This document shows, in pieces, positions 11,596-34,758 of a stretch of 34,758 bases of DNA. How positions within the stretch are numbered: the first letter of the stretch is position 1; each line of letters starts with the position of its first letter. Source of the DNA: a virus; IMG/VR virus record IMGVR_UViG_3300010430_004776, positions 1-34,758 of that record; one strand, given 5' to 3'. The translations under genes and the position numbers were made by a program. The notes under the pieces are model-generated. The model made no database searches. It was not told where the DNA came from and saw only the letters and a list, made by a program, of their open reading frames with translations.

Positions 11596-11958
11596 ATGAT
11601 AAACCTTATTCGGCTCCGATGCTGGTTGCACAACAAGATCAAGATAAAGGCCTGGCGGTGGTGGAAACGGCTGTGCGGCACACTGAACTACAATGACCCT
11701 CTTTTTTTGAAGGACATTGACATTGAGGTGCTGTCTAACGGGAAAATGGTCAGTATTCCCGACAACGTTCGAATCTATGAATCGCTCGACGGGGAGTACA
11801 CCGCTATCGTAGTGAATGCCAGAGGCGGGATGGCTGAATACATGTTTTCAAATGCTCACAGCGGAATTCGGAAACCTACTCCTCCGCCGCCGGCAGGTGA
11901 TCCACGACGCTGGAAAGAGCCCAGACCTGTCTCACCACCTCCCCCGCCTCGCAAATAA
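11596..11958 (+). CDS. Hypothetical protein with proline-rich tail
   Basis: The frame is open from 11551, but residues upstream of the ATG at 11596 (GFATEGTEITE) are just the translated repeat; that peptide is a known artefact of such repeats. From 11596 it has 120 residues: a basic aromatic N-terminal helix (LHNKIKIKAWRWWKRL), a beta-rich middle (IDIEVLSNGKMVSIPDN) and a tail with PPPP runs and basic residues. No family is recognised. GGAG from the repeat serves as its ribosome binding site. Confidence 0.45.
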   Translation: MINLIRLRCWLHNKIKIKAWRWWKRLCGTLNYNDPLFLKDIDIEVLSNGKMVSIPDNVRIYESLDGEYTAIVVNARGGMAEYMFSNAHSGIRKPTPPPPAGDPRRWKEPRPVSPPPPPRK

Positions 11959-11979
11959 AAGCGACCAACGGGAGCTTGC

Positions 11980-18628: not shown

Positions 18629-19105
18629 ATGCCGTCGAATTTGTTTTTGGGTCCGATTAATAATTTGCAGACGTTGTTGGCGACGACGGCGCGTTGGCGG
18701 GAATTGACCGGGGCGGCGGATGTCGCGGGGGCTAAGGAGTTTATTCACAAGGGGTCGGCACTCGACACGAGAACACACCCGCGACCGAGATCGATTATTG
18801 GTCCCAAGGAAGGGCGGACGCTGGAGCGGACTTCGACAACCGGTTGGTTTTTGGAGGGGCCGCTGTTTTGGGAATTGGAACTGGAGACTCCCGACGAATA
18901 TATCGGCGATCACAACGCGGCGTTTGATTGGTTCATGGGGGAAGTGCAGACGCTGATCCACCAGATGGCCACGCTGGTCGTGACGCAAAACATTTTGGAC
19001 GTGACGCGGTTCACGGAATCGGAGGCGGCCGTGCCGTTTGAAGCGGAGTTGTCTGACGGGGTTGAGTATTGGGGCACGCTGTGGGAAATCAACGTCAACG
19101 GGTAA
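18629..19105 (+). CDS. Putative tail completion or connector protein
   Basis: 158 residues from the ATG at 18629, with AGGGGA six bases upstream; a GTG at 18626 is in frame and equivalent. It is a mixed alpha/beta protein with LQTLLATTARWREL early and GWFLEGPLFWELELE in the middle. It is placed after a head-tail adaptor and before a basic virion-morphogenesis-like protein, where phages carry tail completion proteins. There is no diagnostic motif. Confidence 0.5.
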   Translation: MPSNLFLGPINNLQTLLATTARWRELTGAADVAGAKEFIHKGSALDTRTHPRPRSIIGPKEGRTLERTSTTGWFLEGPLFWELELETPDEYIGDHNAAFDWFMGEVQTLIHQMATLVVTQNILDVTRFTESEAAVPFEAELSDGVEYWGTLWEINVNG

Positions 19106-31045: not shown

Positions 31046-31885
31046 ATGGCAACGGTTGCGGAATTGGTCGATCGGTATCTGCAGTGGTGCGCGCAACAGC
31101 GATCCAAATCGACGCTGAAATTCTATCGCTCTCGGCTGGCGAAGTTTCGCGCGGAATTTGGGGCCCGTAACTGGGAATCGCTGACGCAGATTGAAATTGA
31201 GGATCATCTGTCGTTGGTTGGTCAAACCGCTTCGAATTCGACGCGGCATCATAACGTTGTGGCGCTAAACACGATCCAGAACTGGGCGCTGGCGCGGAAT
31301 CTGATTGCGGCGGCTGTGTTTGAGAAATTGGAAAAACCACGGCCCGGCCAGCGGACGCGGATTCCCACGCCGGAAGAAACTGAGATCATTCTCTCAGCCG
31401 GCAGCGAGGCGTTTTGTCGGATCTATCAGGCCTTGCGGCAATGCGGGGCCCGGCCCGGCGAGCTGTGCCGCGCGACGATCGCCGACATTAAAGAGGGCGG
31501 CACGGTGATCGAGCTAACCGAGCACAAGACGGCCCGCAAAACCGGCAAGCCGCGGCGGATCCTCGTCGGTGCGAAAATGCGGCAGCTGATCAATGAGGCG
31601 ATCGGCGATCGGAAAGAGGGGCGGATTTTTCTGTCTCCCACCGGCCGGCCGTGGAAGCCGGAAAACTTGTCGCGGACGTTTCGCAAAATTCGCGACGACC
31701 ACGGATTGAAAAAAGACCTGGTGCTGTATCTCGCGCGGCACGAATTTGGGACCAAGGCGACGGAGAAACTCGGCATCCACGCCGCCGGCGAGATGCTCGG
31801 CCACACGCAAGTCACGACGACACAACGCTACGCGCACGCGGATGAGAACAAACTGCGGAGCCAGCAGGATGATGTGCTGGATTGA
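31046..31885 (+). CDS. int: Tyrosine recombinase (phage integrase)
   Basis: 279 residues with CCAAGGA before the ATG. The N-terminal SAM-like core-binding domain (LVDRYLQWCAQQRSKSTLKFY) is followed by the catalytic domain. The visible catalytic set is Arg136 (CGARPGEL), Lys161 or a neighbouring Lys (EHKTARK), Arg231 (LYLARHEF), His253 (LGHTQ) and Tyr262 (TTQRYAH). Tyr228 occupies the place of the first His of the HxxR motif. It lies about 1.8 kb left of the tRNA-Leu fragment, so it very likely catalyses integration into that tRNA. It is transcribed with the tail genes. Confidence 0.9.
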   Translation: MATVAELVDRYLQWCAQQRSKSTLKFYRSRLAKFRAEFGARNWESLTQIEIEDHLSLVGQTASNSTRHHNVVALNTIQNWALARNLIAAAVFEKLEKPRPGQRTRIPTPEETEIILSAGSEAFCRIYQALRQCGARPGELCRATIADIKEGGTVIELTEHKTARKTGKPRRILVGAKMRQLINEAIGDRKEGRIFLSPTGRPWKPENLSRTFRKIRDDHGLKKDLVLYLARHEFGTKATEKLGIHAAGEMLGHTQVTTTQRYAHADENKLRSQQDDVLD

Positions 31886-31912: not shown

Positions 31913-32431
31913 CTAGTCAGCCCTGAACCACCATGACAGCGCAATCCCAACAAACCATCTCCAAAACCCCGCCCCAGTCTGCTTTACAAATCCGCACGTA
32001 CCGACGAACGCCGTTTCTGCCAAGAGTTTTACAGCGTGTCCGGTGTAGATGACCTTAAGATATTGAAGTTCTCTCGGTCGGCAAAAATACTGCGTGGCCT
32101 CCAGGTAGTCTTCTACCAGCTCGCAATATGCCGGCTCCCAAACCGAGCGGCGCAATTGCGTGGGAATCAAACACGCCATTAACGCCCACCGTCGCGGCCA
32201 CCCCCGTTCAGGCACGATAATCTCACTATCCTCAAGCTCTGCTCGCAAGATCCTCACACTTTGCGGCGCAGTAATCCCGATCCGTACGGCCCTCCCCTTT
32301 CCCGTCGGTAGAATAACGATGTGAATAGAGTCATCGATACAAATCCCCTCACCCCCGCAGCGCGAGATCACATACTCTTCCATTTCTAAGTCGCTCCCTA
32401 AGTCTAAAAAAGCATCATGCAAAATGGGCAT
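31913..32431 (-). CDS. CsrA-domain protein with C-terminal extension and hydrophobic end
   Basis: 172 residues if started at 32431; the ATG at 32383, with GGGAG ten bases upstream, would start two residues before the CsrA-like core and is more likely. Residues 19-68 align with CsrA: ISRCGGEGICIDDSIHIVIL matches its first strands, and VRIGITAPQSVRILRAEL matches VRIG.xAP...R.E, keeping Arg24 and Arg63 (E. coli R6 and R44). CsrA dimers bind GGA in mRNA leaders and control translation. The rest is a helical/Cys-containing segment with a Trp-rich hydrophobic end (FWRWFVGIALSWWF), which is not usual for CsrA. The gene overlaps the PadR gene by 17 bases. Confidence 0.6.
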   Translation of the reverse strand: MPILHDAFLDLGSDLEMEEYVISRCGGEGICIDDSIHIVILPTGKGRAVRIGITAPQSVRILRAELEDSEIIVPERGWPRRWALMACLIPTQLRRSVWEPAYCELVEDYLEATQYFCRPRELQYLKVIYTGHAVKLLAETAFVGTCGFVKQTGAGFWRWFVGIALSWWFRAD

Positions 32432-32723
32432 GTAAACTCTTGCCCAGGTAGAAGTCGATCGTTTTCTCCCTCGCTTTTATCCCTTTCGCGGAAATCTTGT
32501 ACCGCCGCTCCTTAAGGGTTTGGCCGGAAACGACTTTAGTCGTGTACCAGCCTTTAACGTATTGCGCATCCTCAAGGCGGGACATCAGCTGATAAAACGC
32601 GGCCCGAGTTTGTTTAAGTGAAACATGTGCCAATGTGTCGCGGAGTTCACGTCCTGGTTTTTGGCCGTCGACTAACAAAGTCAAAATTGCAAATTGAAGG
32701 GGGGTGATTTTGGGGATTGGCAT
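32415..32723 (-). CDS. PadR-family transcriptional regulator
   Basis: 102 residues, a winged-helix protein. LQFAILTLLVDGQKPGRELR begins the PadR/MarR-like first helices, AAFYQLMSRLEDAQYVKGW is the recognition helix and wing entry, and GQTLKERRYKISAKGIKA is the wing strand pair. AAGGA lies eight bases before the ATG, and a good promoter with TATAAT lies upstream. PadR proteins bind operator DNA and often regulate the gene beside them. Overlap with the CsrA-like gene indicates a two-gene operon. Its position near the attachment site suggests lysogeny-stage expression. Confidence 0.75.
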   Translation of the reverse strand: MPIPKITPLQFAILTLLVDGQKPGRELRDTLAHVSLKQTRAAFYQLMSRLEDAQYVKGWYTTKVVSGQTLKERRYKISAKGIKAREKTIDFYLGKSLHAHFA

Positions 32724-32790
32724 CCTATTCGTTCCTTTTCCATGACTGCGTTAGAGCGTCCGTCTCAAACGGCATCGCATGTAACGTCGC

Positions 32791-32819
32791 ATTATATCCG
32801 ACAGCCAAAGTTGAGGCAA
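32791..32819 (-). promoter_or_regulatory. Promoter for PadR-CsrA-like operon
   Basis: On the minus strand, TTGCCT (32814-32819) and TATAAT (32791-32796) are separated by 17 bases, a near-ideal sigma70-type pair. Transcription would start near 32784 and read into the PadR gene. A small palindrome (CCGTCTCAAACGG, 32760-32772) between start site and gene could be an operator. Confidence 0.6.
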
Positions 32820-32970: not shown

Positions 32971-33501
32971 CTAGCGCTGCCAGACGTAAAAATACACTAT
33001 CGCAAAGCAGGCTCCAAAAACGGTGATGACCCACGACCAAAAGAAAATTAGAAATCTCCGGTCGCTATCTATACCGTACCACCAATCACTGGTCGCTTTG
33101 ATTCCGTTGCCCAAGCCGTTTCGGATTCGCTCTCTCCGTTGTTTAGCCTGTTCGTGTCGCTGTTTTGACCGCAACTCTGCCGTCCTTTGGTACTCTTCGT
33201 TGCGCGCCAATTGTTCTTGCCGGTAAAGTCTCGTTTGCCGTTTGATCTCGGTTTCTGCGCCGCTTCTTCCAAATGGCTCTCCGCAATGCAGACACTTTTT
33301 TGCACCGCTAGGAACACGTCCTAGACACGTTTTACACTGCGGACGGTTGTCGAGCGCGAAAGCCCCGAGGACTCCCAGCGGGCCAAACAGGAGACCAAAA
33401 AAGAAACCTTCCGTCGCGGCCTCTTTTGCGCTCCCGGCTGCGTAACCGATCCAGGCGCTCACGAATGCAATCGGGATTGCGGCGCAGATGAAAGATTCCA
33501 T
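32971..33501 (-). CDS. Membrane protein with zinc ribbon and coiled coil
   Basis: 176 residues. The N-terminus has two hydrophobic segments (FICAAIPIAFVSAWIGYAAG, GFFFGLLFGPLGVLGAFAL). Then comes a zinc ribbon with CKTCLGRVPSGAKKCLHCG (two CxxC), a long charged coiled coil (residues about 85-130) and a C-terminal transmembrane helix (FLIFFWSWVITVFGACFAIV). The layout suggests an anchored assembly or superinfection-type protein. The terminator at 32831-32873 belongs to it. Prophage membrane proteins near the attachment site are often expressed in lysogens; that is general knowledge, not seen here. Confidence 0.65.
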   Translation of the reverse strand: MESFICAAIPIAFVSAWIGYAAGSAKEAATEGFFFGLLFGPLGVLGAFALDNRPQCKTCLGRVPSGAKKCLHCGEPFGRSGAETEIKRQTRLYRQEQLARNEEYQRTAELRSKQRHEQAKQRRERIRNGLGNGIKATSDWWYGIDSDRRFLIFFWSWVITVFGACFAIVYFYVWQR

Positions 33502-33649
33502 GGGCGAGCGGTTCGTAAAGTAGTGGTGGACGGCAGTGGCGAAACGTCCACACTAACGTTTTGGATCACAACGGTCCACAAAAATCCGGCCTTGGAGATC
33601 CATACAATTCGGCCAATCATTAGCATGCGAACAATGCGTTTCTCTTAGA

Positions 33650-33702
33650 TTCAGGACCTAGTGGGGGTTAACCCCGTGGAGGTTCAAGTCCTCTCTTGGG
33701 CA
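33650..33702 (+). other. Right attachment site: 3' part of tRNA-Leu(CAG)
   Basis: From the anticodon loop on, the sequence is a good tRNA-Leu: TTCAGGA loop (anticodon CAG), CCTAG stem half, variable arm GGGG-GTTAA-CCCC, T arm GGAGG-TTCAAGT-CCTCT and acceptor half CTTGGGC with discriminator A. The 5' half is absent: no GCCCAAG upstream, and the bases at 33645-33649 do not pair with CCTAG. This is the standard trace of phage integration in a tRNA anticodon loop, the displaced 3' end marking the right junction. Confidence 0.8.
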
Positions 33703-33874
33703 CTTAGGTATGTAAGGGTTTACGGCGACTGACCATTGCAGTTGTCGCGTTGGTCGCCTAGATCATCGACGGAGGTTAGAGAAGCGTTTTTCAAGGTGCG
33801 GTGAGTGTGGCGGTCGTAAGGGCCGCCCGCTCGGGATCAGGCGAAGTCAAATTTGCCGAGAGCCGGAAGGCTCC

Positions 33875-34423
33875 GTGAGTAACCCTAGGACAGCTCCCGC
33901 ACCGTTTTTTCTTCATGCAAAGCCCCCTGCCCGGGAGAGCGCCGTGCTCGAATGGTTGACGCCTGCTGATCGTTGCGTCAAATTGACCCTGTCGTTGTGG
34001 AAGTTCTACGTCGAGCGAAAGGGACCGCCGGTGTATGTGGCAGTGTTCGCCAAAGCGTTCGAGGTCGATACGCCTGAGGGCGAAATCGATGAGGGCGTGG
34101 TTCCGGTGATTGCCTCGATCACGAACCGGAACGATCATGCGGTTCGCATTACCGACGTGGGTTTAATTTGCAAGGCCGGCCTGTTTGCAAAATCCCGGCG
34201 CATCTCTCTGTTGGGAAAAATCATCTCGCACCACGAATTGCCGATTTGCATCGAACCTCACGATCTGCAACAAGTCGAGCTGATCATCAACGCCGAGGAG
34301 GTCGAAGACGCTGTCTCAGCACGCTTGCTGTTCGTCGAAGTCGATGGCGGCCCTATCTTTTCGGACTACTGCGAAGAACTGCGCAACCACTGCCGTGACT
34401 TCGAAAAACAATTGCTCGGCTGA
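33875..34423 (+). CDS. Hypothetical host protein
   Basis: 182 residues from a GTG, with GGAAGG four bases upstream. It is outside the phage (right of the attachment site). The protein is mostly beta with alternating hydrophobic strands (YVAVFAKAFEVDTPEGEID, VVPVIASITNRNDHAVRITDV, IEPHDLQQVELIINAEEV). No family is recognised. A short helical end (EELRNHCRDFEKQLLG) closes it. Confidence 0.5.
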   Translation: MSNPRTAPAPFFLHAKPPARESAVLEWLTPADRCVKLTLSLWKFYVERKGPPVYVAVFAKAFEVDTPEGEIDEGVVPVIASITNRNDHAVRITDVGLICKAGLFAKSRRISLLGKIISHHELPICIEPHDLQQVELIINAEEVEDAVSARLLFVEVDGGPIFSDYCEELRNHCRDFEKQLLG

Positions 34424-34463
34424 GTCCCTGAGAATCGATTTTCGAAATCCACAGATTTTTTGC

Positions 34464-34491
34464 TTGACACGCGGCGCGACGTTGGTATTTT
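34464..34491 (+). promoter_or_regulatory. Sigma70-type promoter
   Basis: TTGACA at 34464-34469 and TATTTT at 34486-34491 with a 16-base spacer. It is the only good promoter pair seen in the interval and points into the ORF-free region that follows. Confidence 0.55.
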
Positions 34492-34497
34492 GGGACC

Positions 34498-34744
34498 GTC
34501 CTTAATTACTCACGTCCGCGACCAGTCGTGTGATTCTCTTTTGCTCATAAGCCCTAGAGACCAATCGACGGCCTCGAACGTGAACCCAATTTAGTTTTCG
34601 TTCGCAGCCGGCTCCTTCCGTGAGTAGGGGTAGGACCGGTTGGCCTAGGGAGTCTGTTTATGAGAGCCACAATTATCCCCGGCGGGATCATTGGCTTTTC
34701 TCCGCGCCGCGCTGGAGTTTTCTCCTAGCGCGGTTGCGGTTTTT
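34498..34744 (+). ncRNA. Candidate structured non-coding RNA, no ORF
   Basis: Between a promoter (34464-34491) and a terminator (34708-34744) lies about 247 bases without an open frame but with long-range pairing: CTCATAA (34544-34550) with TTATGAG (34658-34664), CCCTAG (34552-34557) with CTAGGG (34645-34650), CCAATCG (34561-34567) with CGGTTGG (34637-34643), CGGC with GCCG, and CGAACG (34575-34580) with CGTTCG (34599-34604). A separate hairpin pairs AGCCA (34665-34669) with TGGCT (34692-34696) and ATCCC with GGGAT inside it. It could be a riboswitch-like leader of a gene to the right or a free small RNA. It does not fit the SRP, tmRNA or RNase P landmarks I know. Confidence 0.55.
34708..34744 (+). 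terminator. Intrinsic terminator
   Basis: CGCGCTGGAG, loop TTTT, CTCCTAGCGCG (one bulged T) forms a ten-pair stem, with outer GC bases able to extend it, followed by five T at 34740-34744. It closes the structured RNA interval. Confidence 0.8.
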
Positions 34745-34758
34745 CTCATTGTAACGAC

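Follow-up and report, generated by a model that had tools for sequence, protein, structure and literature searches.

A prophage of a planctomycete bacterium encodes a real, well-placed phage variant of CsrA with an orphan, predicted-helical tail. The gene lies between the integrase gene and the right attachment site, next to a PadR-like gene on the same strand. Since phage csrA genes are already known, what is new here is mainly the long tail and the pairing with the PadR-like gene. All coordinates below refer to the window, i.e., the entire 34,758-nt stretch of IMG/VR record IMGVR_UViG_3300010430_004776.

RESULTS

A CsrA-domain gene is located between the prophage integrase and attR

When counted from its first ATG, the CsrA open reading frame (ORF) spans 31913 to 32431 on the minus strand and encodes 172 amino acids (aa). 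The original prediction of a CsrA domain held up in a profile search, where the ORF scored 46.6 bits against a PF02599 cutoff of 27 (E = 3.4e-12, residues 20 to 67), and the product also matched the phage CsrA family phrog_9500 (E = 1.1e-7). PF02599, alignment, and the predicted structure together place the domain at about residues 20 to 68 (32228 to 32374, minus strand). Because the ORF passed the Pfam cutoff but missed that of the csrA equivalog TIGR00202 (41.7 versus 70.1 bits), we refer to its product as a CsrA-domain protein rather than a standard csrA product. Given that the canonical CsrA N terminus aligns at residue 19, translation is no less likely to begin at the ATG of codon 17 (32383), which would give a 156-aa protein and a 31-nt gap to the PadR-like ORF upstream. 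The overlap proposed for these two genes thus exists (17 nt) only with the first ATG.

A tyrosine integrase gene (31046 to 31885, plus strand; PF00589, E = 9.5e-18) converges on the CsrA gene. Its product is 63% identical to the orthologue in a related prophage of the Planctomycetales metagenome-assembled genome (MAG) G001, and the terminases of the two prophages are 75% identical. On the other side of the CsrA gene, positions 33646 to 33705 (plus strand) correspond to a tRNA-Leu(CAG) from its anticodon to its 3' end (the 3' half) and barely differ from the intact tRNA-Leu(CAG) in G001. The intact gene sits at the far end of the prophage in that genome, and the match supports the assignment of 33646 to 33705 as attR and, with it, the predicted position of the operon between the integrase and the attachment site.

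The left end of the prophage falls outside the window. Positions 1 to 1760 contain neither an intact tRNA-Leu nor an early region, so the prophage is probably truncated on the left by several kilobases. The sequence past attR (33706 to 34758) is either bacterial flank or another element and includes a 182-aa ORF (33875 to 34423, plus strand) with no Pfam match. In G001, a second, different integrase gene (L050:9715-10800) lies near the tRNA-Leu (11886 to 11971), which suggests stacked or successive integrations there.

The CsrA gene shares a variable slot with a PadR-like gene

The slot between the integrase and attR holds three genes, all on the minus strand: the PadR-like gene, the CsrA gene, and a gene (32971 to 33501) whose 176-aa product has hydrophobic stretches and a part resembling a zinc ribbon. 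This third product matched phrog_17537 (E = 6e-4) and, in Pfam, gave weak double-zinc-ribbon matches only. The G+C content of the slot is ~0.49 to 0.54 over most of its length, below that of the tested core genes; at third codon positions it is 0.54 to 0.61, compared with 0.68 to 0.76 in those genes, and the codon usage of the slot is unlike that of the phage core. PADLOC returned no defense-system match for the three genes. Among prophages with related integrases, the genes that follow the integrase differ, with DNA methyltransferases in three and membrane-type or other proteins elsewhere, which indicates that the PadR-CsrA-zinc-ribbon set occupies a variable accessory slot.

The PadR-like gene (32415 to 32723, minus strand; phrog_3675, E = 6e-6) is upstream of the CsrA ORF and encodes 102 aa. 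Its product shares with PadR regulators (PF03551; structures 1xma and 5dym) the winged-helix pattern LxxLxxGxxxG...FYxxxxRLE...RxYKxxxxG, and its closest solved relatives, albeit weak matches, are 1xma and the PadR protein 5dym. It differs from PadR regulators in scoring below every curated PadR cutoff (for the PF03551 gathering score, 18.3 versus 27 bits) and in the low confidence of its model, which, examined for a winged helix and a C-terminal dimerization helix, predicts the HHH-EE-H order at a mean pLDDT of 59 with 1xma as the top Foldseek match at a probability of just 0.18. The claim of a PadR regulator thus fell short of the family cutoff, and a PadR-like regulator in a co-directional operon layout is plausible at this subthreshold level. 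Its lone distant relative, in locus L060, also reached only 18.7 bits against PF03551 and lies beside a phage-like gene but no CsrA gene. No PadR-like gene was found beside a CsrA gene in 392 Planctomycetota genomes or the sampled viral loci.

Upstream of the PadR-like gene, the predicted sigma-70-like promoter TTGCCT-17-TATAAT is present at 32819 to 32791 (minus strand) and agrees with the consensus at 10 of 12 positions, but the number of such sites (one, versus a mean of 1.5 in shuffled sequences) is not above chance. The leader of the PadR-like gene (32714 to 32763, minus strand) contains four GGA motifs as candidate CsrA sites, three of them ANGGA. A density of at least three ANGGA per 50 nt occurs in 0.2% of such segments of this sequence, although the ribosome-binding site confounds this signal. 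Chance and ribosome-binding sites thus explain part of what are weak promoter and GGA signals. Folding of this leader was not unusual (z = 0.55), and a hairpin resembling a terminator where the PadR-like and CsrA genes meet (32432 to 32416) was dismissed because it was at chance level. An Rfam scan of the window returned no RNA family and hence no known CsrB-like RNA.

Two prophages with related integrases carry CsrAs at a different genomic position

A survey published in 2020 counted 30 csrA-positive phages among 2,517 and noted variable C-terminal extensions (PMC7366521). These 30 are far outnumbered by the IMG/VR stretches in which a search with one peptide pattern picked out an encoded CsrA (at least 380, including L080 to L159). 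Two prophages with related integrases, in G001 and G322, also carry CsrAs (L050:5988-6203, 71 aa; L074:17890-18114, 74 aa). Carriage of a CsrA by a phage is therefore nothing new. The G001 and G322 proteins belong to the same phrog_9500 family as the window CsrA, but they are of ordinary length, occupy another genomic place, and lack a PadR-like partner. Each directly precedes a gene, presumably of the early or replication type, whose 305- or 354-aa product matched no family; this placement may represent a conserved early module.

These observations bear on whether the window CsrA acts in the core phage switch, i.e., whether it regulates phage genes and sets the choice between lysis and lysogeny together with the PadR-like repressor. 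One example of a target would be the integrase gene, whose start reads CCAAGGATGG. The leaders of both the PadR-like and integrase genes are GGA rich, and the presence of CsrA in the early region of two related-integrase prophages is consistent with such a role. However, GGA counts in leaders (1.44 versus 1.06 per 50 nt) are confounded by ribosome-binding sites, the CsrAs of those two prophages sit away from the slot and without the extension, and the slot itself varies among relatives. We therefore consider a core switch function unlikely.

The CsrA core retains both arginines but carries a cysteine at a basic position

In the alignment, Arg24 and Arg63 correspond to Arg6 and Arg44 of Escherichia coli CsrA, as had been predicted, and Ile22 occupies the position of Leu4. 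Leu4 and Arg44 are critical CsrA residues (PMC7652899), and the change from Leu4 to Ile22 is conservative. The basic residue at position 7, which is lysine in at least 90% of the aligned viral CsrAs, is replaced by Cys25, a change that the original prediction did not mention.

AlphaFold2 (AF2) modeled the core strands at a pLDDT of ~90, although the alignment supplied to it consisted of CsrAs, such that the model and the profile match are not independent lines of evidence. In a Foldseek search with the predicted protomer core, the top 11 PDB matches were all CsrA or RsmE (probability, 1.00; target-normalized TM scores, 0.57 to 0.76), and no other chains reached a probability of 1.00. With a score above threshold and a CsrA-like predicted protomer, the CsrA call withstood, at the level of the monomer, the refutation that had been set for it. 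The protein resembles the CsrA/RsmA family, including plasmid RsmQ and the csrA product of Burkholderia phage JC1, in profile, predicted protomer core, Arg6 and Arg44 equivalents, and carriage on a mobile element; it differs in its ~100-residue tail with a hydrophobic, Trp-rich end and in the cysteine at position 7.

Given that host genomes carry many CsrA paralogues (10 in G001), the phage protein could instead form mixed dimers with, or compete with, host CsrAs and thereby dampen post-transcriptional control. Cys25 could weaken RNA binding while the residues of the beta-core stay in place. Retention of the Arg44 and Arg6 equivalents, however, does not indicate a loss of RNA binding, and interlocking among divergent CsrAs is conjectural, making interference a rather improbable explanation.

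The C-terminal extension is an orphan that reads as coding

Residues 71 to 172 (31913 to 32221, minus strand) form an extension with four predicted helices, the last of which is Trp rich (FWRWFVGIALSWWF). The ~100 extra residues and their Trp-rich hydrophobic end were thus borne out, with seven tryptophans in the protein as a whole. The comparison that accompanied this claim, to a CsrA that is normally a 60-residue free dimer, was an unfair yardstick, since the tail after the domain ranges from 0 to 77 residues in the 53 Planctomycetota CsrAs compared (two of them encoded in prophages). Nevertheless, the tail here (~105 residues after the domain) is the longest among the 134 viral and host CsrAs compared. 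The long host tails seem polar and of low complexity, unlike the present extension. In 79 of 81 viral CsrAs, the tail was at most 39 residues, in a sample that leans toward typical CsrAs because it comprises the best 80 of 380 loci. Longer tails occur in the CsrAs at L130:1084-1539 (84 residues after the domain) and L158:921-1271 (59 residues), neither of which was matched by the window extension.

Searched alone against Pfam, the 392 Planctomycetota genomes, plasmids, and IMG/VR, the extension gave nothing beyond chance; three weak genome matches were dropped because they contained stops or covered short stretches only. The full-length protein yielded no relative in IMG/VR, GTDB genomes, plasmids, or phages, and in another 170 genomes of the order, matches stopped at the boundary of the CsrA domain or shortly after it (one longer alignment was dismissed because it crosses a stop). 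Without a homologue, the function of the extension is unconstrained.

This orphan status, the low model confidence in the region (helices at a pLDDT of about 50 to 72), and the lack of a second independent contig over it (L002 stops at position 18843) would fit a nonfunctional extension, i.e., a degenerate or misassembled read-through on an ordinary phage CsrA. In contrast, the frame stays open for more than 100 codons and is the best scoring of the six, level with the PadR-like and zinc-ribbon genes of the slot, and so reads as coding; we think it quite unlikely that the extension is nonfunctional. By its Wimley-White free energies (octanol, -8.6 kcal/mol; interface, -10.3 kcal/mol), the last helix favors partition to the membrane interface. 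It is very unlikely that the Trp-rich terminal helices anchor a dimer of the phage CsrA in this way. Such an arrangement would couple host mRNA control to the membrane itself or to one of its proteins, e.g., the 176-aa slot product.

DISCUSSION

We propose, with a probability of about one in two, that the prophage carries an accessory, moron-type lysogenic operon that combines PadR-like transcriptional control with a GGA-binding CsrA paralogue whose tail serves as a contact module. The PadR-like winged-helix protein would control transcription of the operon from the candidate promoter at 32819 to 32791. The CsrA paralogue would dimerize via its beta-core and recognize GGA motifs in the leaders of mRNAs, those of the host first and possibly that of its own operon, in which case it may be autoregulated. 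The long helical extension would contact a protein partner or a membrane surface and thereby control or localize the RNA-binding core.

The variability of the integrase-attR slot and the absence of the PadR-CsrA pair from related prophages lead us to prefer an accessory function aimed at the host to one in the core lysis/lysogeny switch. For action on the host by a CsrA from a mobile element, plasmid RsmQ, which rewires host translation, provides a working precedent (PMC9928087), and one phage csrA has been termed a moron gene (PMC9144972). Cys25, the orphan extension, the PadR score below the cutoff, the nonconserved pairing, and the weak promoter and GGA signals all argue against the proposal as a whole.

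The suggestion that the tail is a contact site builds on what has been proposed for Pseudomonas RsmM, RsmH, and RsmL and on the analogy with FliW binding in CsrA. Structured C-terminal extensions of CsrAs have been proposed as protein-contact scaffolds (PMC7366521), and FliW binds CsrA near its C-terminal region (PMC7829508). Like RsmM, RsmH, RsmL, and the FliW-type CsrAs, the window protein has a lengthened, partly helical C-terminal region of the kind proposed or shown to be a site of protein contact. Going by the published descriptions, it is set apart by its four predicted helices, compared with the one or two helices added in RsmM, RsmH, and RsmL (with short strands as well in RsmM and RsmL).

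CsrA genes are known on phages and plasmids, but the role of the phage copies is mostly untested, and planctomycete phages have hardly been studied. An extended phage CsrA in an operon on the lysogeny side of the genome provides a concrete case for testing the role of CsrA C-terminal extensions.
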